Origin: Mycolicibacter virginiensis
Lineage (GTDB): Bacteria; Actinomycetota; Actinomycetes; Mycobacteriales; Mycobacteriaceae
Assembly: GCF_022374935.2 (NCBI RefSeq)
Contig: NZ_CP092430.2
Location: 1,798,001-1,862,000, forward strand
Direction of reading: 5' to 3'
DNA length: 64,000 bases
The notes beneath the pieces were generated by a model. It was given only the letters and a program-made list of their open reading frames with translations. It ran no database searches and was not told where the DNA came from. The position numbers and the translations under genes were made by a program. Positions 12,952 to 44,790 of this stretch are shown here, piece by piece; position 1 is the stretch's first letter, and each line of letters starts with the position of its first letter.

Positions 12952-13356
12952 CTAGCGCTCTTCCAACCAGAGTTGCTCGGTGAGGTCTTGGAACGTGGCG
13001 AGCGCAACCCGGTCGTCGGCACGTTCGAGCGCTGACTTGCTCATCAGGGCGCGTACCGTCGAGCCGTCCCGATGCTCCAGGGAGACAACCAGATTCGCCA
13101 GCGAATGCATCACCGACAGGGCCGATTCCTCAGCCGGCGGAACCTGGCCGAAGATCTGCCGAAACTCCAGAGCCAGCACCTCTTCTTGGGTGTAGCCCAG
13201 CATGGCGGCGAACCCGCTGTTGGCGAACAAGATGGTGCCGTCGTCGGCGATCGCGAGCACCGGAACGGGGATCCGCTCGAGCGCGACCAGGGCCGGCAGC
13301 TGCCGCAGTGTGTCCATCGGTGCCAGAGGGGTTTGCGCGTTCCGCCGTCGCTCCAT
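12952..13356 (-). CDS. Stand-alone PAS-domain protein
   Basis: The 134-aa protein holds one PAS domain at about residues 20-130, with the typical ILFANSGFAAMLGYTQEEVLALEF core and a C-terminal VALATFQDLTEQ strand. No output domain is fused. The ATG at 13356 is preferred because a CATAAT hexamer ends 7 nt upstream; an open frame continues to 13437 without PAS-like sequence. It is encoded on the same strand as the c-di-GMP enzyme 373 bp upstream, so it may supply a sensory partner, but no direct link is seen. Confidence 0.75.
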   Translation of the reverse strand: MERRRNAQTPLAPMDTLRQLPALVALERIPVPVLAIADDGTILFANSGFAAMLGYTQEEVLALEFRQIFGQVPPAEESALSVMHSLANLVVSLEHRDGSTVRALMSKSALERADDRVALATFQDLTEQLWLEER

Positions 13357-13363
13357 GTGTCTG

Positions 13364-13369
13364 ATTATG
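13364..13369 (-). promoter_or_regulatory. -10-like CATAAT of the PAS gene
   Basis: On the minus strand CATAAT ends 7 nt before ATG 13356. It departs from TANNNT at its first base. Confidence 0.35.
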
Positions 13370-13475
13370 ACGGGCGCCGCGGACGGCGTGGGCAGGGTTC
13401 GCCGCTGTCGGTTGTGACCGCGGCGCGCACGATACATAGGCAGCCGACGTGATGTGACGCACAGTCTTGTATGGA

Positions 13476-21514: not shown

Positions 21515-24112
21515 TCACTGGGGTTGTCGGTAGGCATAGGCAGCGGCTTGGGTGCGGTTGTGCACGCCAAGTTTGGCCATGATGGCGCAGACGTGAGTGT
21601 TGGCGGTCTTGGTGCTGATGTAGAGAGCGGTAGCGATTTCGGCGTCGCTGCGCCCGGCGGCAAGAAGTTCGAGGACGTCGCGTTGGCGCCTGGTGAGGCC
21701 ACGTGGGTCAGCGCTGGTGTCTTTGCGGCGGCGGTCGGGATTGCGGCCGCGCAGCTGGGAGAGACGCTGCTGGGTGCGCCGGGCCGCGGCGCGGGCGCCA
21801 AGCTGGCGGAAGGTGCCCAGCGCGGCCTCAACGGCGTCGATATCGCCGCTAAGTTGAGCGATGGCGGCATCGTAGGGACAGTCTCGAAGCATCCACTCCT
21901 TCGTGGCCGCGCACCAATCTCCATTGATCTCACGTTCATAGGGCGTGGCAGCGATGACGTCAATACCGGATCGGCCACCGGCTAAATGGGCCCAGCGCCG
22001 CAGGGAACCTCCGAGCCACGTGTACGCCGTGCCGGACACCGTGAGAACCTCGGCCGCGCATTGGCGGACCGCCTCGTCGTCGTCGGCCAGCCAGGCAGCC
22101 TCGGCACGTGCGGCGCAGACAGGTAGGCGCAGCAGGCTGCCCGTCGCAGCATCAAGGGCTTCGTCGAGCAGCGGCCACACGGGTTCCTCGCCACGGCGTG
22201 CCCGGATCAAGGCGACCGTGATCAACGGCGCGATCCGGTGTTGGGGCGCCAGTTCGGGCTGGGTCAGGATCTGCTCGGCCGCCAGCGCAGCAGACGTCCA
22301 GTCGCCGCCGGCCAGGTCGGTCAGCGCCTGCAGCCCCGCCACCAAGGTCTGGAACATGCCAAGTTCGCGGGTGCCGAGGTAGGCGGCGACTTCGGCGAGG
22401 TAACGCTGGGCGCGACCGAATTCGCCGCGCACGACAGCGAAGGTACCGAGGAGCACGCCCAGAATTCCGCTGTGCTCCTCGATCCCAGGGGCCGCGGCCG
22501 CTTCTCGCCACACCTCCTCGAACTCGTCCCAGCCGGTGTCGCTGCAGAACACTGTGGTTAGTGCTGCATATCCGCGGGCGTGGATCACCACGGCAGGGTC
22601 ACCGAAGTGGGCGCCGAGGGCCTTCGCGCGGGCCGCATATCGGGCACAAGCGGGGTCTAAGGCAAGTGCGGCGATGTGCGCCATGTTGATCAGTGACCAA
22701 GCCAACTGGGGGGACGGTTCGAGGTCTTCGAGCAGCCGCAACGACGCGTGCGCTGCTGCCGAGGCTTCGGCGGGGCGTCCCAGCAGCTGCAGGACGTGCG
22801 ATAGCCGGCGCAGATCTTCCGCCTCCTGGTGAAGATTCCCCAGCTGCTGGCGGAGCGCGATCGCCTGTCGCCATGACGACATCGCCGATTCGGCCTGGCC
22901 GCTCAGATAACTGCTGAATGCGTGCTGTTCGAGCCATACCGCCCTTTGCTCGTCGGGGATGGTGTCGACATGGCGCAGCACCAAGGCATACATGTCGGCG
23001 GCTTGCCGATGGGCGCCGAATCCTGCAGCGCGCGCGGCGGCCACCGGGCCGTAGTCGATGACCGCATCGGTGTCGCCGGCCTGTTCGGCATGAAAAGTCA
23101 ACGCCGCCAGCGTGTCCGGGTCAACCGGTGGTTCCGCCAAAGCGGTCAGCGCTCGCTTGTGCAGCACCCGCCGTTGATAGGCGGGGATCTGTTCGACGAT
23201 GGAACGGCGGGTCAGTTCATGGCGGAATCCCACCGCGTCGGCGTTGGCTACCAGCACCCCGGCGGCGAGGCATTCGTTCAGGGTGCCTGCGGCGCCCGGC
23301 GACACCACTTCGAGCAGGGCGGGGTGCACCCGCGGGCCGCAGATCGCTGCCGCCTGTGCGGTTTCGCGCGCAGCGGCCGACAGCCGTGCGAGTCGGCCCC
23401 GCACCGCCTCGGAAATGCTGCACGGCAGGTCGCCATCGCCCAGCGCATCAGGCCCGGCGGCCAACATCTCCGTGACGAAAAACGAGTTCCCGTCGGTAAG
23501 CCCGTACAACGCTTGGGCGTTGATGCCGCTGCCGGCGGCCAGCGCGGCGACCGCCGCGGGGGTGAGCGGGTCCAACGCCAAGCGCGTCACGGCCGCCCAG
23601 GTCGCCACATCGCCTAACAACACGGCGAGCGGATGGGTTGGGCCGATCTGGTCGTCACGGTAGGAAGCCAGCAACATCACCGGCAGTGTGTCGATTCGCC
23701 GTGCCACATGGCGCAGCAGATCCAGGGCGGCGCCGTCGGCCCAGTGCAGGTCCTCGATCACCCACACCGAAGGGGTTCCGTCGCCGACGATGCCGACCAG
23801 CCGGGCATACATCGCCTCGGTGTCTCCGGCATCGATGGCGCCGCGTATCGAGGCGGCTTGACTCGCGGGAAGGTAGGCGAGCATGTCGATGATCGGGCCC
23901 AGCGGCCGCGGGGTGGCAAGACCGTCGCACCAGCCCCGCAGCACTCGGGTGCCCGGATCGAGTGTGGCGAGAAACTGGGCTATCACCGTGGTCTTGCCCG
24001 CGCCGGATTCGCCACGCAGCAAAACCAGCTGCCCGTGCCCTCGGGCGGCGGTCCGATAGCAGCGATGAAGGTTGGTCAGCGTCGTGTCGCGTTCGAGCAG
24101 ACGGCTCACCAC
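21515..24112 (-). CDS. LuxR-family ATP-binding (LAL) transcriptional regulator
   Basis: About 865 aa. The N-terminal AAA/STAND ATPase has Walker A GESGAGKTT and a Walker B-type VWVIEDLHWAD. A long TPR-like helical middle follows. The C-terminal LuxR helix-turn-helix (last about 65 residues) carries LTRRQRDVLELLAAGRSDAE and STKTANTHVCAIMAKLGVHN. LAL proteins are ATP-switched activators responding to a sugar or other inducer. Its position before uspB suggests it controls sugar uptake; that is inference. The GTG at 24112 follows a GGAGG-rich stretch; an ATG at 24151 is the longer alternative. A perfect palindrome lies upstream at 24164. Confidence 0.9.
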   Translation of the reverse strand: MVSRLLERDTTLTNLHRCYRTAARGHGQLVLLRGESGAGKTTVIAQFLATLDPGTRVLRGWCDGLATPRPLGPIIDMLAYLPASQAASIRGAIDAGDTEAMYARLVGIVGDGTPSVWVIEDLHWADGAALDLLRHVARRIDTLPVMLLASYRDDQIGPTHPLAVLLGDVATWAAVTRLALDPLTPAAVAALAAGSGINAQALYGLTDGNSFFVTEMLAAGPDALGDGDLPCSISEAVRGRLARLSAAARETAQAAAICGPRVHPALLEVVSPGAAGTLNECLAAGVLVANADAVGFRHELTRRSIVEQIPAYQRRVLHKRALTALAEPPVDPDTLAALTFHAEQAGDTDAVIDYGPVAAARAAGFGAHRQAADMYALVLRHVDTIPDEQRAVWLEQHAFSSYLSGQAESAMSSWRQAIALRQQLGNLHQEAEDLRRLSHVLQLLGRPAEASAAAHASLRLLEDLEPSPQLAWSLINMAHIAALALDPACARYAARAKALGAHFGDPAVVIHARGYAALTTVFCSDTGWDEFEEVWREAAAAPGIEEHSGILGVLLGTFAVVRGEFGRAQRYLAEVAAYLGTRELGMFQTLVAGLQALTDLAGGDWTSAALAAEQILTQPELAPQHRIAPLITVALIRARRGEEPVWPLLDEALDAATGSLLRLPVCAARAEAAWLADDDEAVRQCAAEVLTVSGTAYTWLGGSLRRWAHLAGGRSGIDVIAATPYEREINGDWCAATKEWMLRDCPYDAAIAQLSGDIDAVEAALGTFRQLGARAAARRTQQRLSQLRGRNPDRRRKDTSADPRGLTRRQRDVLELLAAGRSDAEIATALYISTKTANTHVCAIMAKLGVHNRTQAAAYAYRQPQ

Positions 24113-24163
24113 GGCCAACCCCCCTCCCGCGTCGGGTCCGAGGCCGCGCATCCCGGAGCAAAT

Positions 24164-32354: not shown

Positions 32355-35300
32355 TTACTGAGTTTCGGCATTCTCATTGCGGAGTCGCAATCGGTTCACT
32401 TCGTCGAACCTGGCGAGTGCGGCGTCGAGGCAGTCTTGGTCGAACAGCTCGCAGCGATTGACCAGATCCCCATCAACGGTCATCACGGTGATATCGCGCC
32501 ATTCGGCTTCGAAGCCCTTGCGTGAAATACCGTGCGCCACATGGGTGACGACGGCTCCGATGGTGCTGATTCGGTGCACCGCTGCGATGTAGATCCTGGT
32601 GTCCGGTGAATCATCCCAGGCAGCCTGCATGTATGGGATCATGTCGCCGGGCGCGAAACCCGCCCCGCGGCGGTGGTCGACGCTCACCCAGTCCGGCGTC
32701 GTCGCGGCCAGATCGCGCCGGTTGAACCCGGCATACGCACCGGTGACGAGCGACCACGGCTGCGCATAGGCGGCCGCTTCGCCGGCGAGATAGCGGGCGT
32801 CGAGTTCGGCGAGGGCGGCGTCGATGTCGTCGACATCAAAAGTCACGGTGTACTGCATTAGACCGGCGGCGTCGACTTCCATGAGATGCAACATCTCGAC
32901 GGCGACCGGTCGATCGGCATCACCGACGTCGCGATAGCGGTCGCGGGTCAGTGAGAGCCGAGATCCCCGGATGGCGATGGGCTCCACCTCCAACCGCCAG
33001 GTGCCCGGAACCGTCTCCAAGGTGGCGTCGATGACTAACCGTCGTTCGGGACCGTCGAGGACAGAACGCAGACCCTTCCGGCGGTCCTCGTACCGGCCAT
33101 CTTCGTTGGCAAGCGCGAAGATCGCGTCTCCGTCGCGGCGGTTGAATGCTTGGGCTACGAGGACACAGTTCCGGGTGGCTACGTTCTCCAGTACAGGCGT
33201 CGATCGGCCCAGCTCGTCGAATAGGGCGAGCGCGGCGTCGAGGTCTGCTTCATCAAATACTTCGCAGCGGCTGATCACATCGCCCTCGACCGTGAACAAC
33301 ACGACTTCGCGCCATTCGGCCTCGAAGCCCTCTTGCGATGTCCCGCGCACCACTTGGGTGACGACCGCACCCAAGCCATTCAGCCGGTGCACCGCTTCGC
33401 TATAGCACCCGACGTCGGGCGCGAGGTCCCACGTAGCGCGCATATAGGCGGCCAATTCACCGGGCGCGAACGCTCTTGCGCGACGGTGATCGACATTCTC
33501 CCAGTCGAGTTCGGGAAATTCGCGTTGGTTGAATGCGGCGTAGCCCGCCGATATGACCGACCACGTGTGCGCGCAGGCCACCGCTTCACCGGCGACGTAG
33601 CGGGCGTCGAGCTCGGCGATGGCGGCGTCGATGTCGTCGAGGTCGAATATGACGCGTGCGACGACTCTTTCGTTGGCGTCGATTTCGACAACGTCGAGCA
33701 GGTCGTTGCAGAACGCATCGGGTCGGTTGACATCCTCCAAGGCCCGGCCACGACTCAAGACGAGGCGTTCCCCACGAGTCGCAACGATATGTGAAGTGAG
33801 GACCACCCCGACATCAGCGATTGCCGCAACTTCTGCGACGACGGCGTCTCGGCCATGTCGGGCACCAGCATTGACCACGTGGCGACGATCCATCGTAGAA
33901 CAGTCGTCGGTCAAGATCTCTGCGATTGCTGCCCAGTCCTGAGCGGCGAAGTGCGCCAGGATGCGCTCATATACGCGCCCTGCTGCATTACCCAACCGCG
34001 CCGGCTGCGGTTGCAGCTCTTCGAATCTGGCGAGCGCGGCATCGAGGTCCGTCTCGTCGAACAACTCGCAGCGATTCACAAGGTCGCCTTCGAAGGTAGC
34101 CACAATGATCTCTCGCCATTCGGCATCGAATCCCTGCTCCGACGTGCCGTGTGCCGCTTGGGTAAAGACCGCTCCGTGTGCGCTGAGTCGATGCACCGCC
34201 TCGATATAGACCCGAAAGCTCTGTGCTTCGTCCCACGAGGTGCGGATGTACGTGGCCAAGTCGCCAGTTTCGATTGTCGCGATACGGCGGTGATCGATGT
34301 TCACGCAGTCGGGTGTGAGTCGGAGTTGTTGGTTGTTCGCTGCGGCGTAGGTATGGATGAGCGCCGACCACGAGCGCGCATAGGGCGCCGCTTCGCCGGC
34401 GAGGTAGCGGGCGTCGAGCTCGGCGACGGCAGCGTCGATATCGTCGGGGTCGAAAGAGACGCTCGCCGCCAACCGTCCATCCGAATCGATCTCCCCGACG
34501 TCGAGCTGCTCGGCGAGGTATGCCTCGGGGCCTTGATGCCGGAACGAGAAGACACTCCGGGTAAGGACAAGGTACTTCCCACGCGTCGCGACATCGCTCA
34601 CTTCGACGTCGGCGATACCGAGGTCGGCGACAGCCCGCATGTTGGTGAGGGCCGCGTCTCGACCGCGTCGAATTCCGGCGTTCACGGTACTTCGGTGATC
34701 GTCTTGGTAGTAATCCTCAGCCAGGAGATCGGCCATCGCGTCCCAGTTGTGGACGGCGAACTCGGCCAGGAAGCGTTGGGACACCTGGCTTGCCGCATTG
34801 TGCAATCGCCGCACCCTCTGCGGCTGCAGCTCCTCGAACCTCGCGAGCGCGGTGTCGAGGTCTGCTTCGTCGAACATCTCGCAGTGGCTGATCAGATTGC
34901 CGTCGACCGTGACAGTGTCGACAATGCGCCACTCGACGTCTAGGCCTTCTGGCGAAGTCCCTCGGGCTACGTGGGTGATCACCGCGCCGCGGTCGGTCAG
35001 CCGATGTACGGCTTCGATGTAAATGGTGTTCTGTGCTGTGTCTTTCAGTGCCACGCGCAGGTATGCCATCAGGTCTCCAGGGCCGACCGTCGCAAGCGTA
35101 CGACGGTCCACGTCGGTGAAGCCGGGAACGGTCGGAGGCATCTCGCGTCGACTCATCGCAACGAAGGCCGTTGTGATCGCCGACCAGGTGTCAGCGCAGG
35201 CGGCCGCTTCACCCGCTAGATAGCGCGCATCGAGTTCGGCCAGGGCGTCGTCGAAGTCGTCAAGATCGAACACTACGGCCGCCACAACTTTCTCGTCCGA

Positions 35301-38300
35301 ATCGAGCTCGATGACGTTAAGGGCATCGTTTTGAACTGCCTCAGGGTCGGGGCCGGAGGCCCGGACGCGGGTGAGGACGAGCCGCTCGCCGCGGGTTGCC
35401 ACGGCTTCCGACATGATGATGGTGAAGCCGACCTCAGCAGTCGCCTGCAACTCCCGGATTCCGGCATCTCGGCCATATCTGATGCCGGTATTGACTGTTC
35501 GCCGACGATCGTCGATGTAGTAGTTGTCGGCCGCTGCCTCTGCGATGGCCTCCCAGTCACGGGCCGCAAAGTTCGGGTAGAACCGCTCCATCACCAGCGT
35601 TGCCTTGTTCTCCAAGCGACGCTGCGGTGGGCTTTCGTTCTGGAATCGTGCGTGCAGCGCATCAAGTTCGGCGATCGCCGCATCCATGTCTTCGACGTCG
35701 AACGATATCCGCACCGCGATCCGCTCATCCGCATCAAGACCGAACAGCTGGAGTATGTCCTCCTTCGGCGCCCCAGGGCTGACGTCTGCAGTGCCTACCT
35801 CCAACCGGGTGAGCGCGAGGCGTTCGCCCCGCACTGCGATCACCTCGTTCTTGTGCCGGACGGTGAACATCGCGCGATAACGCTTTGCTTCGCGGGTCCA
35901 TTCGGTTGCCGTGAGGTTGTGAGGGCCGAAACCAACTACCTTTCGCCGACTCTCGACCAGGACGTCGGGCGCGTACAGCTGCTCAACCTCATGCCACGCC
36001 TCTCGATCAAAAGCTGCTTCGACGCGACGGACCATGCGCATGCACGCGTTGACCAGATCGACCGGCAACTCTTCGGGTGGCGGTGGTGAGGTACGCCTGC
36101 CGCCGTCGCCGAAGATCCGGCGCGCCCTGGCGGCAAGTGCCTCGGCCCCTTTCCGCTCGTAGAGCTCCGTTGCTCGCTCGGCGGCGGCCCGTGCCGCCGT
36201 TAAATCGCCCGCGGCGGCCAGCACCGTTGCCAGCGTCAGACAGGCATCGCCGTGATCGACCAAGGCGTCGGTGCGCTGCGCCAGCTCGACCGCGGACTCG
36301 GCCATCTGCCGGGCCGCCGAATGATCACCATGGCCCGTTAACAGCAGCGCCCGAAGCGTGCGCCAGGCGATCGACGCCTTCAATGCGTGTCCGGCGAGAC
36401 GCTCACTCTCGGTGCACAACTCCTGCGCCTCGGCATCTCGGCCGAGAGCCAGATAAGCACGCCCCAGCAGCGCAGCGGTCTCGGCGGTGTCGGCATCCAG
36501 CCCCATCCGGCGAAAACCGTGGTAGGCCTGACGTAGATGCGGTTCGGCGCCCTTCGGGTCGTCGACAACCAGCTCAATGATTCCGGCGAACTGCTCAACT
36601 TCAAGCAAGGCATGGCGCAGGCCGATCTCGGTGACCGTGCGCCGTGCCGAGTCGATCATGCGCCGGGCGGTGGCAGCGCGGCCGCGGAAGGCCTCTAATA
36701 CGGCTTGGCATCGTGTCGATGTCGCCTCGACGGCCGGGGATTCCGTGGTGATGCGCAACAGTCGCACCACGTCCAGACAACGCCCGCCGGCACGCGGCAC
36801 CGGGTTCGGGCCCCACAGTGCCGCCAGGGGCGCTCCGGCCAGCACCGCATTCACCCGACGCTGTTCACGGGCGCGCCGAGCAGCGGTCAGCGCGCTGTCT
36901 AAGGCGATCTCGCAGTCGCCGATTCGGCCAAGACGCGCGAGGCATCCGGCTCGGACGGTGTGGGCTTTGGCTTCTCCTTCGGCGTCACCCAATCCGGCCA
37001 GCCTGTCGGCGGCCACGCCCAGCGCGGCCTCGATTTCGTCCAATTGTTCCGGATGGATCAGCATCGACAGCTGGCCGTCGAAGCATGTCGCCCACGCTGC
37101 CAGCCGAGCCGAATCGACTGTTGCTGCCTGTAATTGCGAGACAGCGCGGGTCGCCGAAGCCACTTCACCGGCGGCAAGCAGCGCCTCACAGCGGGCGACT
37201 AGCAGCTCGGCGCTCTGGTCGGCGCGATCGGGCAGCTCGTCGTCGAGCTCCTCCAGGGCGTGCAGCGCCTGGCCGTACAGGTCGGCCGCGCCTTCGTAGG
37301 CCAGGCGTGACATCGCCTGATCCGCCGCTCGCCGGCAGTACTCGACGGCCTTGGCCGCGTTTCCCGCCCACGCGCATTCGAAATAGTGGTACGCCAGTTC
37401 CGCCAGCAGCTCCTCGTCTGCACCGGCGCTGGCTTCCAGCGTGATGGCGATACGGTGGTGCAGTCGCATGCGCCGCACCGAGGCCAACTCGGCGATCAGC
37501 GCCTGCCGGACGAGGGCATGGTTGAACCGGTATCGACCGCCGGGCTCTTCGATGATGATGCCGGCTTTGCAGGCTTCGTCGAAGGCGTCGACGAGGTCTT
37601 GTTCGAGCGCCCGCTCCACGAGATCTACCGCGAAGCGGCTGCCGACTACGGCGGCTGCGGCAAGGGCTTTGTTGGTCGCTGCTGGAAGCCGGGAAAGCCT
37701 GCGGCTCACGGCTTCACGAACACCCTGCGGCAAGGTGTTGGGATCCCAGATTCCGCCGCTCTCGTCCACATGGCGCAGTGCCTCGATCAAGAAGAACGGG
37801 TTGCCGCCGGTGACCGACGCCAGCGCCCGGGCGAGCTGTTCGTCGTCGTACCCGGCCTCGGCGACATAGGCGGACACGTCGTCGGCACCGAGGCCGCTCA
37901 GCGCCAGGCGGTCCGCGGTGCCGTCGCGGTGAAGATCGGCGAGCATTGCCGCCAGGGGATGGGATCGGTCGAGGTCTGTGCTGCGGTAGGTCGCGACGAT
38001 CTGCACCCGGGTGTGGTCGCCGAAGCGCAGCAGATGGCGCAACAGCAACAGCGTCGGTTTGGCCGCCCAGTGCAGGTCGTCGAGTATCAGCACGACGGGC
38101 GCGCTGGCAGAGGCGAGTTCCATCAACGCGACGACGGCGTCGAAGAGCGCATAGCGTTCGGTGTCGGGGTCGGCGCGCGGTGGCGCGGACAGGTCGGGCA
38201 GTACTTCGGTCAGGCCGGGAATCAGTGGAAGTAGTGCCTCAACGCCCCGCAATCCCCGCAGTCTTTGTGCGCCGATGCAGGGGACGAGCGAACGCAGTGC

Positions 38301-39863
38301 TTCGGCGAAGGGCTGATAGGGCGCACCGAGGTCCTCGTCGGATCGGCCGTACAACACGACGGCGCCTTGCCCGAAGGCCTGTTGTGACCATTCGCCGGCC
38401 AGGCGCGTCTTGCCCACGCCCGGTTCGCCGGCAATCAACATCGCGTGAATGCCGCCGGCGAGTGCAGCCTGCCACGCGTAACCAAGTCGCTTCAGCTCTG
38501 GACCGCGACCCACGAACCGGCCGGGGCCGGTGAATACCGCGGGGAGGTCGGGCCGCGCCAGGGGCTCGTCGACGGTCTCCTCTCGCTGCTCGGCGATTTG
38601 GAAGCGGAGCTCGAACACATGCTCCGGACGAGGCAGGTTGCGCAGCGCACGCATCCCCAGGTCGGCGAGGCCGACGTCGTCGGGCAGCGTGTCGATGACG
38701 AGTTCGGCCGTCGCGCCCGAGCACAGAATCTGGCCCCCGGCGGCCAGCGACCGCAGACGCGCGGCGCGGTTGACCGCGCGACCGAAGTAGTCACCGTCGC
38801 GCAGCTCTACCTCGCCGGTGTGCAGGGCGATCCGGATGCGGATGGGTTCGTGCAGCGCCCACGGCTCACGCAGGATTGCGTCTTGCAGCTCGATGGCCGC
38901 GGCGGCCGCCGCCGAAGGCCGGTCGAAGACCGAGAAGGTGGCATCGCCTTCGCCACGCGTTTTGATGAGCCGGCCGCCGCGGGAGGTGACCACTTGCTCG
39001 ACGAGCTCGTCGTGGCGCGCGAGCGCTATCGCCATGGCATCGGCGTCGGCCTCCCACGCGGCGGTCGACCCCTCGATATCGGTAAGCAGAAAGGTCACGG
39101 CGCGAGTCACCGACGGAAGATGCTGAGTCACCGGGTAATCCAGTGCGGAGTCCTGGGCAACTATCGCGGCCTCGAGCCGTCGAAGCTCGGGTCCTGGGTC
39201 GACGCCGAGCTCGTCGGCGAGCAGCGCCCGTGCCCGTTGATAAGCGCCCAGCGCTTCGCCCTGTCGGCCGGCGCGGTAGAGCGCCAGCATCAGCTGGGCC
39301 CATCGCCGCTCACGCAACGGTGCATCGGCCACCGCGGCTTCCAGCTCGCCGATGATCTCCGCGGCTCGTCCCGTCGCGAGCAACGCGTCGGCGCGGTCCT
39401 CGACCAGGGCGGCGTGCCCTTCGATCCAGCGTGTCCGCTCCGAGACACCTCGGCGGGAATCGGGTAGTTCGGGAGTTCCGCGCCACAGGCTCAGCGCCTC
39501 CTCGAAGCGGACCACGGCCTGGCCGGTATCGCCGGCCGCCGCGGCGTCTCGTCCGGCTTTGGTGGCCCGCTTGTAGCGCGGGGCATCCACCTCCGTGGTG
39601 TTGAGGATCCAGCCCGTTCCCTCGGTGAGGACGAACCCGTCGCCCAAGGCTCGGCGCAACGAGGAGATGTGAGTCTGTAGCGCCTTGGCCGCAGTGCGCG
39701 GCGGCTCGTCGCCCCAGAGCAGATCGATCAGCGTTTCGGCCGACAGCACCGAACCGCCGTGTAGACCGAGCATGGTGAGGATCGCGCGCGGCTTGGCGCC
39801 CGGGATTGTGACCGAGGCGCCGTCGTGCCGGGCCTGAAGAGGTCCCAAAACCCCCAGCTCCAC
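32355..39863 (-). CDS. Giant SARP-cyclase-STAND regulator with nine NTF2/SnoaL-like modules
   Basis: About 2,502 aa. Residues 1-245 are a SARP module: winged helix (VELGVLGPLQARHDG start) plus BTAD domain. Residues 255-420 are a class III nucleotide cyclase with TDIEGST, IKTRGEGDATFSVF and GRAVNRAARL, so metal Asp and transition-state Asn/Arg are present. An AAA/STAND ATPase follows (AGEPGVGKTRLA near 480, VLILDDLHWA), then TPR-like helices to about 1,255. The last half is nine NTF2/SnoaL-like modules of 125-145 aa, pattern A-A-B-A-B-A-B-A-B; A modules end ELDARYLAGEAA, B modules end ARFEELQP. The start GTG 39863 is set by TACCAT 7 nt upstream. The target genes are unknown; htpG is divergent. 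Confidence 0.85.
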   Translation of the reverse strand: MELGVLGPLQARHDGASVTIPGAKPRAILTMLGLHGGSVLSAETLIDLLWGDEPPRTAAKALQTHISSLRRALGDGFVLTEGTGWILNTTEVDAPRYKRATKAGRDAAAAGDTGQAVVRFEEALSLWRGTPELPDSRRGVSERTRWIEGHAALVEDRADALLATGRAAEIIGELEAAVADAPLRERRWAQLMLALYRAGRQGEALGAYQRARALLADELGVDPGPELRRLEAAIVAQDSALDYPVTQHLPSVTRAVTFLLTDIEGSTAAWEADADAMAIALARHDELVEQVVTSRGGRLIKTRGEGDATFSVFDRPSAAAAAAIELQDAILREPWALHEPIRIRIALHTGEVELRDGDYFGRAVNRAARLRSLAAGGQILCSGATAELVIDTLPDDVGLADLGMRALRNLPRPEHVFELRFQIAEQREETVDEPLARPDLPAVFTGPGRFVGRGPELKRLGYAWQAALAGGIHAMLIAGEPGVGKTRLAGEWSQQAFGQGAVVLYGRSDEDLGAPYQPFAEALRSLVPCIGAQRLRGLRGVEALLPLIPGLTEVLPDLSAPPRADPDTERYALFDAVVALMELASASAPVVLILDDLHWAAKPTLLLLRHLLRFGDHTRVQIVATYRSTDLDRSHPLAAMLADLHRDGTADRLALSGLGADDVSAYVAEAGYDDEQLARALASVTGGNPFFLIEALRHVDESGGIWDPNTLPQGVREAVSRRLSRLPAATNKALAAAAVVGSRFAVDLVERALEQDLVDAFDEACKAGIIIEEPGGRYRFNHALVRQALIAELASVRRMRLHHRIAITLEASAGADEELLAELAYHYFECAWAGNAAKAVEYCRRAADQAMSRLAYEGAADLYGQALHALEELDDELPDRADQSAELLVARCEALLAAGEVASATRAVSQLQAATVDSARLAAWATCFDGQLSMLIHPEQLDEIEAALGVAADRLAGLGDAEGEAKAHTVRAGCLARLGRIGDCEIALDSALTAARRAREQRRVNAVLAGAPLAALWGPNPVPRAGGRCLDVVRLLRITTESPAVEATSTRCQAVLEAFRGRAATARRMIDSARRTVTEIGLRHALLEVEQFAGIIELVVDDPKGAEPHLRQAYHGFRRMGLDADTAETAALLGRAYLALGRDAEAQELCTESERLAGHALKASIAWRTLRALLLTGHGDHSAARQMAESAVELAQRTDALVDHGDACLTLATVLAAAGDLTAARAAAERATELYERKGAEALAARARRIFGDGGRRTSPPPPEELPVDLVNACMRMVRRVEAAFDREAWHEVEQLYAPDVLVESRRKVVGFGPHNLTATEWTREAKRYRAMFTVRHKNEVIAVRGERLALTRLEVGTADVSPGAPKEDILQLFGLDADERIAVRISFDVEDMDAAIAELDALHARFQNESPPQRRLENKATLVMERFYPNFAARDWEAIAEAAADNYYIDDRRRTVNTGIRYGRDAGIRELQATAEVGFTIIMSEAVATRGERLVLTRVRASGPDPEAVQNDALNVIELDSDEKVVAAVVFDLDDFDDALAELDARYLAGEAAACADTWSAITTAFVAMSRREMPPTVPGFTDVDRRTLATVGPGDLMAYLRVALKDTAQNTIYIEAVHRLTDRGAVITHVARGTSPEGLDVEWRIVDTVTVDGNLISHCEMFDEADLDTALARFEELQPQRVRRLHNAASQVSQRFLAEFAVHNWDAMADLLAEDYYQDDHRSTVNAGIRRGRDAALTNMRAVADLGIADVEVSDVATRGKYLVLTRSVFSFRHQGPEAYLAEQLDVGEIDSDGRLAASVSFDPDDIDAAVAELDARYLAGEAAPYARSWSALIHTYAAANNQQLRLTPDCVNIDHRRIATIETGDLATYIRTSWDEAQSFRVYIEAVHRLSAHGAVFTQAAHGTSEQGFDAEWREIIVATFEGDLVNRCELFDETDLDAALARFEELQPQPARLGNAAGRVYERILAHFAAQDWAAIAEILTDDCSTMDRRHVVNAGARHGRDAVVAEVAAIADVGVVLTSHIVATRGERLVLSRGRALEDVNRPDAFCNDLLDVVEIDANERVVARVIFDLDDIDAAIAELDARYVAGEAVACAHTWSVISAGYAAFNQREFPELDWENVDHRRARAFAPGELAAYMRATWDLAPDVGCYSEAVHRLNGLGAVVTQVVRGTSQEGFEAEWREVVLFTVEGDVISRCEVFDEADLDAALALFDELGRSTPVLENVATRNCVLVAQAFNRRDGDAIFALANEDGRYEDRRKGLRSVLDGPERRLVIDATLETVPGTWRLEVEPIAIRGSRLSLTRDRYRDVGDADRPVAVEMLHLMEVDAAGLMQYTVTFDVDDIDAALAELDARYLAGEAAAYAQPWSLVTGAYAGFNRRDLAATTPDWVSVDHRRGAGFAPGDMIPYMQAAWDDSPDTRIYIAAVHRISTIGAVVTHVAHGISRKGFEAEWRDITVMTVDGDLVNRCELFDQDCLDAALARFDEVNRLRLRNENAETQ
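32377..36070 (-). repeat. Coding tandem repeats (NTF2-like pairs, 807/807/816-bp spacing)
   Basis: The module-end motif (reverse complement of TAGCGGGCGTCGAG) recurs at 32791, 33598, 34405 and, slightly changed, 35221. Spacings are 807, 807 and 816 bp, all in frame. Similarity remains at DNA level around the module ends, so the pairs arose by duplication within the gene. Confidence 0.8.
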
Positions 39864-39870
39864 GGCTTGA

Positions 39871-39876
39871 ATGGTA
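39871..39876 (-). promoter_or_regulatory. -10 hexamer TACCAT of the giant regulator
   Basis: On the minus strand TACCAT is followed by 7 nt and the GTG at 39863, the codon that gives the canonical SARP N-terminus. Confidence 0.45.
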
Positions 39877-40003
39877 GTCACCTGGCAATCGTCGGTGGGG
39901 CGATTCAACGCGCGGTCAAGATCCAGTAAAGAACGCCGTTCGCCGCGGTCGGGGCGCCGTCGGTGACGGCTTGGCCCCCCGAGGAGCACGATGACGCCGT
40001 CGG

Positions 40004-40009: not shown

Positions 40010-40018
40010 TTGGCGCTT

Positions 40019-41953
40019 ATGAGCGCACGTGTGGAGCAACTGGAGTTTCAGGCCGAGGCTCGGCAGCTGCTGGATTTGATGGTCCACTCGGTCTACTCGA
40101 ACAAGGACGCGTTTCTGCGGGAGCTGATCTCCAATGCCTCCGACGCACTGGACAAGCTGCGGCTCGAGGCGTTCCGCAACAAGGACCTCGAGGCCGACAC
40201 CTCCGACCTGCACATTGAGATCGAGGTGGACGCGACGGCGCGCACCCTGACGGTTCGCGACAACGGCATCGGCATGTCGCGTGACGAGGTGGTGGATCTG
40301 ATCGGCACCTTGGCCCGCTCCGGTACCGCCGAACTGCGTCAACAGCTACGCGAAGCGCAGAACGCCAAAGCCTCCGAAGAGCTGATCGGCCAGTTCGGGA
40401 TCGGCTTTTACTCGGTGTTCATGGTGGCCGACAAGGTCGAGATGGTCACCCACAAGGCCGGCCAGAGCGAAGCCATCCGGTGGGAATCCAGCGGTGATGG
40501 CACCTACACCATCGAATCTGTCGATGACGCACCGCAGGGCACGTCGATCACGTTGCACCTCAAGCCCGAAGACGCCGAAGACGCGCTGCATGACTACACC
40601 GCGGAATGGACGATTCGGGGCCTGGTCAAGAAGTACTCCGACTTCATCGGCTGGCCGATCCGCATGCAAGTCGAGCGCCGGACACCGCCGGCCGAAGAGG
40701 GGGGCGACGAGACGGTCACGGTGGAGACCGCGACACTGAACTCGATGCAGGCGCTGTGGGCGCGCCCCAAAGACGAAGTCTCGCCAGAGGAATACAACGA
40801 GTTCTACAAGCACATCGCGCACGCCTGGGACGATCCGCTCGAGGTCATCGCGATGAAAGCCGAAGGCACCTTCGAGTACCAGGCGCTGCTGTTCATCCCG
40901 TCGCATGCCCCGTTCGACCTGTTCAACCGGGACGCCCAGGTCGGCGTGCAGCTGTACGTCAAACGCGTGTTCATCATGGGCGACTGCGACCAGCTGATGC
41001 CCGAGTACCTGCGCTTCGTCAAGGGTGTGGTCGACGCAGCGGACATGTCGCTCAACGTCTCCCGGGAGATCCTGCAGCAGGACCGTCAGATCAACGCGAT
41101 TCGCCGGCGGCTGACCAAGAAGGTGTTGTCGACCATCAAGGAGCTGCAGTCGCAGCGGCCCGAGGACTACCGCACCTTCTGGACCGAGTTCGGTCGCGTC
41201 GTCAAGGAGGGGTTGCTCTCCGACTTCGACAATCAAGAGGCGCTGCTCGCGGTCAGCTCGTTCGCCTCGACCCACAGCGACTCCGAGCCGACCACGCTGG
41301 CCGACTATGTCGAACGCATGAAAGACGGCCAGGAGCAGATCTTCTACGCCACCGGTGAGTCCCGCCAGCAACTGCTGAAGTCGCCGCACCTGGAGGCGTT
41401 CAAGGCCAAGGGCTACGAGGTACTGCTGCTCACCGACCCGGTCGACGAGGTGTGGGTGAACGCCGTCGCCGAGTTCGACGGGAAGCCGTTGCAGTCGGCG
41501 GCTAAGGGCGAGGTGGATCTGGACACCGAGGAGGAGAAGACCGCGCACGAGGCCGAGCGCAAGGAGCAGGAAAAGGATTTCGCCGACCTGATCTCCTGGC
41601 TGGAGCAGACGCTGACCGAGCACGTCAAAGAGGTACGGCTGTCCACCCGGCTCACCGAGTCACCGGCGTGCCTGATCACCGATACCTTCGAGATGACCCC
41701 GGCGTTGGCGCGCATCTACCGCGCCAACGGCCAGGAGGTGCCAGTCGGTAAGCGCATCCTTGAGCTGAATCCGGGCCATCCGCTGGTCACCGGTCTGCGC
41801 CAGGCACACAGCGAGCGAGGCGCCGAGGACGCCGACCTGGCCGAGACCGCGGAGTTGCTCTACGGCACAGCGCTGTTGGCCGAGGGCGGGGCGCTGGAGG
41901 ATCCGGCGCGGTTCGCCGAGCTGCTGGCGCAGCGGCTAACACGCACGGTCTGA
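40019..41953 (+). CDS. htpG: Molecular chaperone HtpG (Hsp90)
   Basis: The 644-aa cytosolic ATP-dependent chaperone is nearly collinear with M. tuberculosis HtpG (Rv2299c). The GHKL ATPase domain (1-230) has ELISNASDALDKLR, DNGIGMS and GQFGIGFYSVFMVADKV. The middle domain (about 240-500) has the SREILQQDRQINAIRRRLTKKV loop with the catalytic Arg region. The C-terminal dimerisation domain ends ARFAELLAQRLTRTV. ATG 40019 is chosen from alignment; a TTG three codons upstream is in frame. Confidence 0.97.
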   Translation: MSARVEQLEFQAEARQLLDLMVHSVYSNKDAFLRELISNASDALDKLRLEAFRNKDLEADTSDLHIEIEVDATARTLTVRDNGIGMSRDEVVDLIGTLARSGTAELRQQLREAQNAKASEELIGQFGIGFYSVFMVADKVEMVTHKAGQSEAIRWESSGDGTYTIESVDDAPQGTSITLHLKPEDAEDALHDYTAEWTIRGLVKKYSDFIGWPIRMQVERRTPPAEEGGDETVTVETATLNSMQALWARPKDEVSPEEYNEFYKHIAHAWDDPLEVIAMKAEGTFEYQALLFIPSHAPFDLFNRDAQVGVQLYVKRVFIMGDCDQLMPEYLRFVKGVVDAADMSLNVSREILQQDRQINAIRRRLTKKVLSTIKELQSQRPEDYRTFWTEFGRVVKEGLLSDFDNQEALLAVSSFASTHSDSEPTTLADYVERMKDGQEQIFYATGESRQQLLKSPHLEAFKAKGYEVLLLTDPVDEVWVNAVAEFDGKPLQSAAKGEVDLDTEEEKTAHEAERKEQEKDFADLISWLEQTLTEHVKEVRLSTRLTESPACLITDTFEMTPALARIYRANGQEVPVGKRILELNPGHPLVTGLRQAHSERGAEDADLAETAELLYGTALLAEGGALEDPARFAELLAQRLTRTV

Positions 41954-41983: not shown

Positions 41984-42259
41984 CACCTCGTTCGTACAGG
42001 TTGTCTCCCCCCGCGATTGGGTGTCAGCTCCGATAGCGCAAGACGAGTTCGGCGATGAAGCTGGAAGCAGGTGGAAGCAGATTTCCACCGGGCCGGAGTC
42101 ATCGTCGGGAAGTCACTCCCCGTGACCGGTGGCCACACCGCCACATGATCCGGTCCGGTTGAACCAGCGTTGGTCGATCAGCTCCATAGAACTCCAACCG
42201 CGGGGTGGGTCCGGCACCGCTGGTCGCCGATAGGACGGCAACTAGAGGGGATATGTGCG
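41984..42259. other. 276-bp leader region before the first PPE gene
   Basis: No coding frame was supported. An AGAGGGG lies about 10 nt before the PPE start and may serve as ribosome site. A direct repeat of GGAAGCAG occurs near 42062-42080. No clear -10 was identified. Confidence 0.35.
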
Positions 42260-43501
42260 GTGTTGGATTATGGAACATCTCCCCCCGAGATCACCTCGGC
42301 CAAAATCTATACCGGCCCTGGCTCGGGACCACTGTTGGCCGCGGCGGCGGCCTACGATGCACTCGCTGCCCAACTGAATTCATTTGCTACCGGATACTTC
42401 TCGGTGATCGCCGACCTGCAGGGCGAGAGTTGGGCCGGGAAGGCATCGGCGGCGATGGCCGCTGCCGCAACGCCCTACGCCGAATGGGCGACGGTAACGG
42501 CGAGCCAGCTTGAACGGGCCGCCGGCCAGGCGCGCGCGGCAGCAGCCAGCTATGAACAAGTCCGTATCGCGGTGGTGTCACCGGTGGTGGTGACAGCCAA
42601 CCGTGCTCGGCTCGCGAGCCTGGCTGCGGCCAATGTCTTCGGGCAGAACACGCCCCAGATCGCGGTCGCCGAGTTCGAGTATGCCGAGATGTGGGCCCAA
42701 GACACCCTCGCGATGTTCGGCTACGCGTCCACGGCTGCGACGGCGACACAATTGCCGTCGTTTCACGAGCCACCGCCGACGACCAACCCGGCAGGGGGTA
42801 TGGCCCAGGCCGCTGCGGTGGCCGGCTCGGCGGGAGCTAGTGGCGCGTCGAACTCGCAAACCTTGCTGTCGCAGTTGCTTACGGCGCTGCCCCAACAGCT
42901 CGGCGGGCTCGCCACAGGCCAGGCTGCGGCGCTGCCCGCCCAGGCGGACCCGTTGCTGCCGCTGGAGCTGATCGAGGCCGCGAACATCCTGCTGGGGCCG
43001 ACCTCTTTTGGCTTGCAGACCGCTCGGACGGTCTCGGCGATTGGCTCGTTTGCGTTGGCCGGGAATGCTTTCCTGCTGACCCATGGTGGAGCCGGTATCG
43101 GCGCCGCCGGCGCCGCCGGCACGGCGGGGCCGGTCCTGGCCAATGCCGAAACGCCGGTGGCTGAGTCAGGTGCTGCTGCCGGCGGGCACAAGGTGGTGCT
43201 TGCCCACATGGGTGGTGACGTGGCGCCGGTGGGACAGCTGACGGTGCCGCCGGCGTGGGCGGATGCCACCCCGGTAGCCGCCGCTACCAAAGACCCGGTG
43301 TGGTTGTCGGAAGCAGAGCTTGACGGTGCGTCGCCCTGGCAGGGCAGCGCGGAAACGGACGCGCCCGGAGTATCACCGGCGGTAGGCATGGGGCCGATGG
43401 CGGCAATGATGGGTGGAGGGTTGGGGCGCCAATCGGTCGCCGGCGCCCTGCGTGTCGAGCCCAGTCCGTTCAAGATGCCGCGTCCGTCCTGCGGTGGCTA
43501 G
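42260..43501 (+). CDS. PPE family protein, SVP-type
   Basis: The 413-aa protein has the mycobacterial PPE domain (about residues 1-165): start VLDYGTSPPEITSAKIY, the WAGKASAAMAAAATPYAEW helix-turn with WxG-like motif, and the WAQDTLAMFGYA end. The C-terminal part is Gly/Ala-rich and carries a VGQLTVPPAWADA motif of the SVP subfamily. Such proteins leave through type VII secretion (ESX-5 type) as PE-PPE heterodimers and stay on the cell surface; no PE or ESX gene is in the window. Its GTG start is fixed by the canonical N-terminus. A second PPE gene follows after 71 bp. Confidence 0.93.
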   Translation: MLDYGTSPPEITSAKIYTGPGSGPLLAAAAAYDALAAQLNSFATGYFSVIADLQGESWAGKASAAMAAAATPYAEWATVTASQLERAAGQARAAAASYEQVRIAVVSPVVVTANRARLASLAAANVFGQNTPQIAVAEFEYAEMWAQDTLAMFGYASTAATATQLPSFHEPPPTTNPAGGMAQAAAVAGSAGASGASNSQTLLSQLLTALPQQLGGLATGQAAALPAQADPLLPLELIEAANILLGPTSFGLQTARTVSAIGSFALAGNAFLLTHGGAGIGAAGAAGTAGPVLANAETPVAESGAAAGGHKVVLAHMGGDVAPVGQLTVPPAWADATPVAAATKDPVWLSEAELDGASPWQGSAETDAPGVSPAVGMGPMAAMMGGGLGRQSVAGALRVEPSPFKMPRPSCGG

Positions 43502-43572
43502 CGCATGCGCGCCCATTTGGTGAACTACCACTTAGAGTTTCGGGGCCTCTTGCGGAAACGACCGGGTAGTTG

Positions 43573-44790
43573 ATGTTTGATTTCGGCGCACTGCCCCCCG
43601 AGATCAATTCGACCAGGATGTATGCCGGTCCGGGATCGGGGCCGATGATGGCGGCGGCTGCGGCGTGGGACGACATTGGCAGACAACTGGAATCGGTCGC
43701 AACCGGCTACTCCTCGACGATCTCCAGTCTGCAGGGGCAACCCTGGTCGGGTCCCGCCTCGGATGCCATGGCGGCGGCCGCCACCCGATATCTGGCGTGG
43801 GCCACCGCCACCGCAGCGCAGGCCGAACAGACCGCCGCCCAGATCCGGGCGGTGGCGGGAGCTTACGAGACGGCGTTCGCCGCGACGGTGCCACCGGCGG
43901 CAGTGGCGGCCAACCGCACCCAGTTGGCGATGCTGGTGGCCACGAATTTCTTCGGGCAGAATGTCCCGGCGATCGCAGCCACGGAGGCCGTTTACGCCGA
44001 GATGTGGGCGCAAGACGCCACAGCGATGTATGGCTATGCCGGAGCCTCGGCGCAGGCAGGCATGCTGAGGTCGTTCTCACGTCCGCCGGAGACCACCAAC
44101 TTGGGCGGGCAATCCGCCCAACAGGCCGCGGCGACGCGCGCCGCCGCCGACGTCGTCGCCGGGGACACGCAGATGGCGCTAGCGGAGCTGCTTTCGGGCG
44201 CATCAGAACCGCCACAGATTCTCACCACGGCACCGGCGCAGCCATCACAAGCGGGCCTCGCCCAGGCCACACCACCACCGGCATCGTTGCCGATTGTCGA
44301 TCAGGTGGCGGCTTTCGGCCCCACCCTCGGAGTACTGGGCGTGGCTCAACAGGTGGTGTTCACCACCGGCTCGCAGGGCATTTTCGGCATGGCGATTCTG
44401 AACGCGCAAGCCAAGGCGGCCGCCGGCGCCATGCTGGCCACCCCGGTCGTCACGGTCGATGCGCACGGCCCAGCCCTGACCGGCGTGCCCGCCGCGGTGC
44501 TGGCGGGTGCAGGAAAGGCGGTGCCGGTCGGAAAGTTGTCAGCGCCACAGAACTGGTTGACCGCAACGCCGACGGCAAGCGTTGCTGATTCGGCTGTTCG
44601 GTCACCGCGACCGGCGGCCGTCGGGGCAGCCCCGCCGGAAGCTGCGAACTCGGCGAAGCCCATGGCGGGCAACGCCCCAACCGCGGTCATGGGACCGATG
44701 GACCGTCGGGCGCCTCGCCGCGACGGTACCGCGGTGTTTCGGATGCGGGACCGCCGCTTTCGGATGCCCCGACCTCCTGGGGCCGGATGA
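43573..44790 (+). CDS. PPE family protein, SVP-type
   Basis: The 405-aa protein starts [17 protein letters not shown] and has the PPE domain ([32 protein letters not shown]) plus a [15 protein letters not shown] version of the SVP motif near residue 320. The domain is similar to that of the upstream PPE gene, and both end in a basic FRMPRP or FKMPRP tail, so they are tandem duplicates. ATG 43573 is chosen from family alignment. The partner PE is not encoded next to it. Confidence 0.93.

Follow-up and report, generated by a model that had tools for sequence, protein, structure and literature searches.

A mycobacterial SARP-cyclase-STAND protein with a mosaic array of NTF2-like modules and a predicted operator in its own promoter

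The window analysed here, a 64,000 nt stretch of the Mycolicibacter virginiensis genome (a single contig of 4.98 Mb), contains a gene encoding a SARP/BTAD DNA-binding head, a class III nucleotide cyclase, a STAND ATPase like those of CED-4 and the NLR proteins, a MalT-like TPR superhelix and nine NTF2-like modules, in this order from the N- to the C-terminus. In sequence comparisons a constant output half is joined to a mosaic array, most changes in which are by two modules, as the identity of the N-terminal half is high and module sets differ even between close relatives. The predicted target of the SARP head seems to be the gene's own promoter, a single site at the stringency used. The protein looks like a multi-pocket receptor of a new kind; it is not categorically new, since SARP-LAL, STAND and SnoaL-fused regulators have already been described. 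The literature searched yielded no account of this architecture, of the array or of regulation through a single operator.

The gene and its constant half

The open frame on the minus strand spans positions 32355-39989 of the window (2,544 codons). When the window protein and 19 homologues, all full-length, were aligned, the common start fell at residue 37 of this frame, and a start codon was present there in the promoters read (GTG in 24 of 25, ATG in one), so the gene was delimited accordingly. An initial annotation had described a single uninterrupted frame, placed at 32355..39863, joining SARP/BTAD, class III cyclase, P-loop ATPase, TPR-like and repeated NTF2/SnoaL-like parts; Pfam, fold matches and profiles bear this out, but the start lies 18 bases further upstream, at a GTG. 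Matches in Pfam are to Trans_reg_C, BTAD, Guanylate_cyc, AAA_16 and SnoaL_2. The parts preceding the array are as follows:

32355-39881, minus strand: whole gene, GTG start, 2,508 aa
39120-39863, minus strand: SARP head, winged helix and BTAD; residues 43-290 of the 2,544-aa frame; Pfam Trans_reg_C and BTAD above cut-off
38610-39119, minus strand: class III nucleotide cyclase; residues 291-460; Pfam Guanylate_cyc; Ma1120, E 5e-21
37377-38558, minus strand: STAND nucleotide-binding module; residues 478-871; Walker A GEPGVGKTR, Walker B LILDDLHW
36090-37376, minus strand: TPR superhelix; residues 872-1300

A search for the same architecture in other mycobacteria, as had been proposed, found the N-terminal part of the protein in 29 of 119 sampled genomes, its own included, and on this basis an assembly artefact was rejected. 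Assembly can be misled by repeats, and there are breaks in some relatives (in locus L009, and as stops within some matches), but 19 homologues share the frame and its order, the frame is also found in single-contig genomes and the array units are divergent, such that the likelihood of a fusion or assembly artefact is negligible. N-terminus and array occur together in 28 of the 119 genomes, on different contigs in G051 and G061; in G048 the N-terminus lacks an array, the frame running to the contig end, and array matches lacking the N-terminus were found in G043 (the zinc-ribbon form described below), G047 (a 136-aa fragment) and G069 (73% complete). The G genomes and the named loci (L), among which those from Mycolicibacter species are the most similar to the window locus, may share species, and their counts are not independent.

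Identity to the window protein, measured over its first 1,308 residues, is 77-93% in the 19 homologues. Mean identity over 26 homologues is 90% for the cyclase, the best-conserved region of the protein, 84% for the STAND module, 83% for the SARP head and 78% for the TPR, the last value being too low, since the cutting of the sequences left at least one row at 0. Five of six catalytic positions of the cyclase are present (two metal-binding Asp, the substrate Asp and the Asn-Arg pair), the substrate-Lys position being occupied by Arg, with a Lys two residues upstream. This pattern is constant across 20 aligned sequences, the position of the second metal Asp being set by the alignment; the predicted structure of the domain is of low confidence (pLDDT mostly <60). 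Fold matching of the STAND region, with its Walker A and B motifs, recovers a NOD fold followed by superhelical repeats, and the core resembles those of CED-4, RPP1 and, by Foldseek, Avs3.

The NTF2-like array and its turnover

The nine NTF2/SnoaL-like modules of the initial annotation were all recovered, and could be delimited within residues 1309-2530, with boundaries set by this analysis:

35622-36065, minus strand: module A1, the cap; no pocket Asp, ESRR; SnoaL families below cut-off only
35229-35621, minus strand: module A2; SnoaL_2 above cut-off
34824-35228, minus strand: module B2; profile, homology to A
34401-34799, minus strand: module A3; SnoaL_2 above cut-off
34014-34400, minus strand: module B3; profile, homology to A
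33600-34004, minus strand: module A4; SnoaL_2 just below cut-off
33204-33599, minus strand: module B4; profile, homology to A
32808-33191, minus strand: module A5; weak SnoaL_2 (as in A1)
32400-32807, minus strand: module B5; profile, homology to A

They are of two types, A and B, each of around 130 aa; within the window, the five A share 33-55% identity and the four B 47-56%. A self-BLAST of the window returned the trivial alignment only, and a PDB sequence search with the module alignment a single chain at E 0.099; the repeats were instead revealed by profiles, and iterated profiles built from the window modules detect the same modules in other loci. The fold of the A modules is that originally proposed rather than another, NTF2/KSI being found for A3 and A4 of the predicted model. 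B modules are homologous to A by profile comparison (probability 92%, E 8e-7) and have a similar secondary structure; they have no Pfam match at cut-off, VIA rows scarcely cover them and their alignment to KSI by hhalign is poor.

The order of the array is a cap A followed by (AB)n. Junctions were counted in frames with at least two modules from L001, L009-L032 and L076-L082, giving 254 AB and 229 BA, or 483 regular junctions, vs two irregular ones (one BB, one internal AA), both of which involve a match of <50 residues; leading AA junctions numbered 30. Among the 27 frames whose N-terminus is complete, 22 start AAB, two have one leading A, two have three and one has four. Module number ranges from six (L019) to at least 43 (L014), the latter in one 5,680-aa frame consisting only of modules on a metagenome contig open at both ends (L014:2-17041); the largest complete frame, in L013, has 31 modules and 5,484 aa. 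Based on the KSI alignment and the alternation of strands, which also predict how the pockets face, the A and B modules may pair, and (AB)n would then be a row of covalent A/B pseudo-dimers. The alternation is itself no proof of pairing, because unequal crossing-over between like modules would alone preserve the AB order.

Within one array, AB units have a mean aa identity of 40-59%, on which basis recent tandem duplication was rejected; the highest pair, in L014, reaches 80%. In comparisons of close relatives, most matching modules have 72-96% identity, but the module set differs. For instance, L020 (M. heraklionensis) is without the last AB pair and has a cap 48% identical, L011 is without window modules 5B-6A and L018 without 6A-7B; one leading A is also missing from L018 and L019, i.e. 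changes are not always by twos. L076 has 13 modules in one frame and further module matches in another frame of the same genome. In L009 (M. senuensis) the array passes into another frame near its end (~13162-13393), through either a sequencing error or a real break. One genome that lacks the gene has a 136-aa frame with one B module, apparently a remnant (L109:3731-4138, minus strand).

Outside the genus group, four of 296 genomes of the phylum match the array profile, one of which (G154) lies outside the family. The TPR and array of G154, used as a query, match 24 of 396 genomes; the non-genus matches listed, G154 apart, are confined to the TPR part and come from frames of 337-1,327 aa. The chassis with its array is joined to more than one head, as evidenced by a sister form in which a double zinc ribbon replaces the SARP head, found at L107:2705-9430 and L108:2724-10217, both of the same genus, and L075:6551-12181, of another class of the phylum. 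These proteins have the same middle as the window protein, consisting of STAND and TPR, and an NTF2 array; unlike it, they have the double zinc ribbon, a canonical GDG cyclase and no operator (0/3). The arrays of L107 and L108 comprise an A cap followed by mostly alternating A and weakly scoring B matches, that of L075 is ordered AABAA, and the L075 TPR is 57% identical to that of the window.

One acidic residue is kept in nearly all array modules. Modules were counted after leaving out 3/288 A and 8/260 B as short, then one exact duplicate of each. Array A modules (n = 254) have Asp in 98% at the position aligned to KSI Asp38 and Arg two residues on in 99%, and the B modules (n = 251) have Asp in 95%, His in 93% and Arg in 98% in the motif aligned with that of A; leading or cap A modules (n = 30) have Ser in 90% where array A has Asp. 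The A-module Asp is placed on KSI D38 by hhalign, gap-free and with a probability of 72%, and the ends of the VIA range concur. Of the ketosteroid isomerase triad Tyr14/Asp38/Asp99, the Asp38 position alone is retained, equivalents of Y14 and D99 being variable; KSI chemistry is not expected, as the D99 position is among the most variable.

Along strands beta4/5/6, entropy is higher on the pocket side than on the other face, both in A (2.85 vs 1.56 bits; Mann-Whitney p 7e-4) and in B (2.23 vs 1.39 bits; p 0.006), with strand parity, fixed after per-position entropies had been viewed, set for A from KSI F82, D99 and M112 (hhalign) and for B by analogy with A. Relative to other variable positions within orthologous modules, a control set including some helix and beta1 positions that possibly line the pocket, the variable pocket positions differ by +0.057 in A (95% -0.004 to 0.118, p 0.038) and +0.061 in B (-0.03 to 0.153, p 0.15). 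A separate ligand for each pocket is thus just a trend, the margin by which variable pocket positions are retained over the others in orthologues being small.

The promoter, its operator and the genomic setting

Upstream of the gene lie two putative regulatory elements:

39903-39931, minus strand: operator of three direct heptamers, CTTTACT-N4-CTTGACC-N4-GTTGAAT, with an 11-bp period; PimR-type layout, predicted from sequence
39888-39893, minus strand: -10-like hexamer GACGAT, 9 nt past the third heptamer and 6 nt before the GTG

With slight variation, the consensus CTTTACC-N4-CTTGACC-N4-RTTGAAT starts 50-51 nt upstream of the start in 25/25 promoters located; L079 and L080, where the search word missed the start, were left out of these, and the operator was later found in both. 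Four of the six bases of GACGAT are invariant and the other two are conserved in 23 and 24 of the 25 aligned promoters, and the position of the hexamer suggests leaderless transcription. The operator occurs once in each of the 27/27 SARP-headed loci holding the N-terminus, window included, among loci of at least 7 kb, shorter ones being left out of the scan.

In its own genome the operator has a single match at up to three mismatches, a setting that is weak by itself, since the reversed control pattern also matched once. At up to two mismatches, 32 places were found in 30 of the 119 genomes, vs 0 for the reversed pattern, and 30 of the 32 are 36-40 nt upstream of the N-terminal match of the gene. 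The operator is thereby present above the gene in 28 of 29 carriers, twice in both two-copy genomes; the remaining carrier, G021, has a degenerate copy with three mismatches in the same place. The only sites away from the gene at this setting are in G046 and G064 (L111 10013-10041, minus strand, and L112 from 9293, plus strand), with no part of the gene downstream, L112 having a STAND-like match of 25% identity elsewhere; these orphan triple-heptamer operators are perhaps remnants of gene loss. A two-heptamer pattern, searched in 12 genomes, matched the gene's own promoter in 11 and one extra site, in G066; it is absent from G017, where the first base differs, and its reversed control gave one match across the 12. 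As the operator is nearly always above this gene, the SARP head seems to have one predicted target at up to two mismatches, namely itself.

No partner gene was common to all compared loci among the top 18 clusters of 31 loci, many of which have little or no flanking sequence. Six loci of the Mycolicibacter type share one setting and six to seven loci another. The window neighbours are absent beside the gene in other mycobacterial loci among those listed, and Pfam named no recognised defence family in ten of them. Divergent from the gene, and having the upstream region in common with it in Mycolicibacter-type loci, is htpG (HSP90; 40010-41953, plus strand); beyond it are two adjoining PPE-family genes (42170-43501 and 43570-44790, plus strand). 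An 878-aa AAA_16/LuxR (GerE) STAND regulator lies ~8 kb away (21515-24151, minus strand).

Known relatives and possible function

Mycobacteria possess cyclase-STAND-LuxR proteins of the type of Rv0386, Rv1358 and Rv2488c. The window protein likewise has a cyclase with a GEGD motif (VEQGEGDSF in L002, a relative in its own genome) and a STAND ATPase, but differs in having a SARP head and an NTF2 array and no LuxR tail. In combining a nucleotide-binding module with a TPR fold it resembles MalT and the NLR, Apaf-1 and CED-4 STAND proteins; unlike in these, the sensor would be an NTF2 array and the output a SARP head with a cyclase. Two NTF2 domains per chain are found in the epoxide hydrolases MonBI/MonBII and Lsd19, the top Foldseek matches, although those are two-domain enzymes and nine modules, up to at least 43, are present here.

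With its N-terminal SARP, of winged helix and BTAD both above the Pfam cut-off, and an AAA/STAND ATPase in the C-terminal part, the protein has the features of a SARP-LAL regulator. According to the available text of three papers, PimR, SanG, PolR and FilR of Streptomyces share this N-terminal SARP with a cyclase/LAL-like remainder and a STAND ATPase, and have no C-terminal LuxR HTH (PMC3367932, PMC5930380, PMC10972967); the NTF2 array is an addition of the window protein. The operator of PimR, as far as the accessible part of its description goes, consists of three heptamers with 4-nt spacers (PMC5930380), the same layout as predicted here; the predicted target is the gene's own promoter, whereas that of PimR is pimM. 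PimR is said to be without a cyclase signature, whereas the cyclase is present, and best conserved, in the window protein. ECF41 and ECF56 sigma factors with a SnoaL_2 extension are, from what is available of one account, also transcription factors fused to an NTF2-like domain (PMC7730460), but with one module and neither ATPase nor cyclase, as opposed to an alternating array. Two STAND/conflict surveys mention NTF2 a single time in the available text, for a different system, and that of a 2004 cyclase survey has one match, in its reference list.

With a little less than even confidence, the protein is interpreted as a one-protein NLR-like receptor that is autoregulated, has diversified its pockets and signals through its cyclase. 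The pockets of the A/B pseudo-dimers would differ between units and bind small, probably hydrophobic ligands; their state would be relayed, by analogy with MalT and the NLRs, by way of the TPR superhelix and reach the STAND ATPase, which would alter the oligomeric state of the N-terminal half. The SARP head would bind the three heptamers of its own promoter and set its own level, probably by positive feedback, and the cyclase, as its family and residues suggest, would produce an outgoing nucleotide signal. Comparison of relatives shows modules being gained, lost and exchanged in the arrays against an unchanging output half, by which each lineage may have its own receptor range. More tentatively, this would amount to a combinatorial receptor, in which 20 or more paired NTF2 pockets are possible, each with the retained acid and its own lining, built and reshuffled mostly two modules at a time on an unchanging NLR-like chassis whose regulatory target is its own gene alone and whose output is a cyclic nucleotide.

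The initial annotation had offered a multi-ligand sensor or a scaffold. The former draws indirect support from the retained pocket acid, the variable pocket face with a conserved other face and the mosaic change in copy number, and the latter is possible if somewhat unlikely: NTF2 pairs might serve as a scaffold or spacer for oligomerisation or for holding partners, with sensing left to the TPR or STAND parts. NTF2-like domains in ECF sigma factors work by intramolecular contacts, according to the available text (PMC7730460), modules vary from six to at least 43 beneath an unchanged head, and TPR-only matches typify the listed relatives outside the genus; yet a scaffold does not account readily for the pocket-base Asp that nearly all A and B modules of the array keep and the cap lacks, nor for variability concentrated at the pocket face rather than the other. 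The initial annotation also had the modules possibly gating a cAMP-producing transcription factor; the parts that this would need are present and conserved, the cyclase most of all. It is improbable that the array recognises viral proteins and the cyclase raises an alarm, as in an anti-phage NLR-like sensor, even given the likeness of the STAND core to CED-4, RPP1 and Avs3, the patchy distribution with fast array turnover and the match of the zinc-ribbon relatives to PADLOC Pycsar cyclase models through their cyclase domain. Against this, a PADLOC search with the window protein matched 0 families at E 1e-3, a chromosomal setting is shared within each of two groups of up to six and seven loci, the ten Pfam-scanned neighbours include no recognised defence family and a self-controlling transcriptional head is not a killing output. 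Least credible of these roles, and very improbable, is a regulated multi-enzyme array of isomerase-, hydrolase- or hydroxylase-like modules: the KSI D38 position in A and the Foldseek likeness to the polyether epoxide hydrolases MonB/Lsd19 would favour it, but the hhalign positions of Y14 and D99 are variable and fusion to a STAND regulator is unusual for such arrays.

If the favoured reading as an autoregulated receptor is true, the protein would give bacteria an equivalent of the immune or nutrient receptors that are diversified by repeats, with ligand-pocket domains in place of LRR, WD or ankyrin repeats, all in one gene with one operator, which opens it to direct tests with the SARP domain, a single AB pair and a DNA of 29 bp. 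For mycobacteria it would add a candidate cyclase responsive to several ligands, and a very long autoregulator with one operator.
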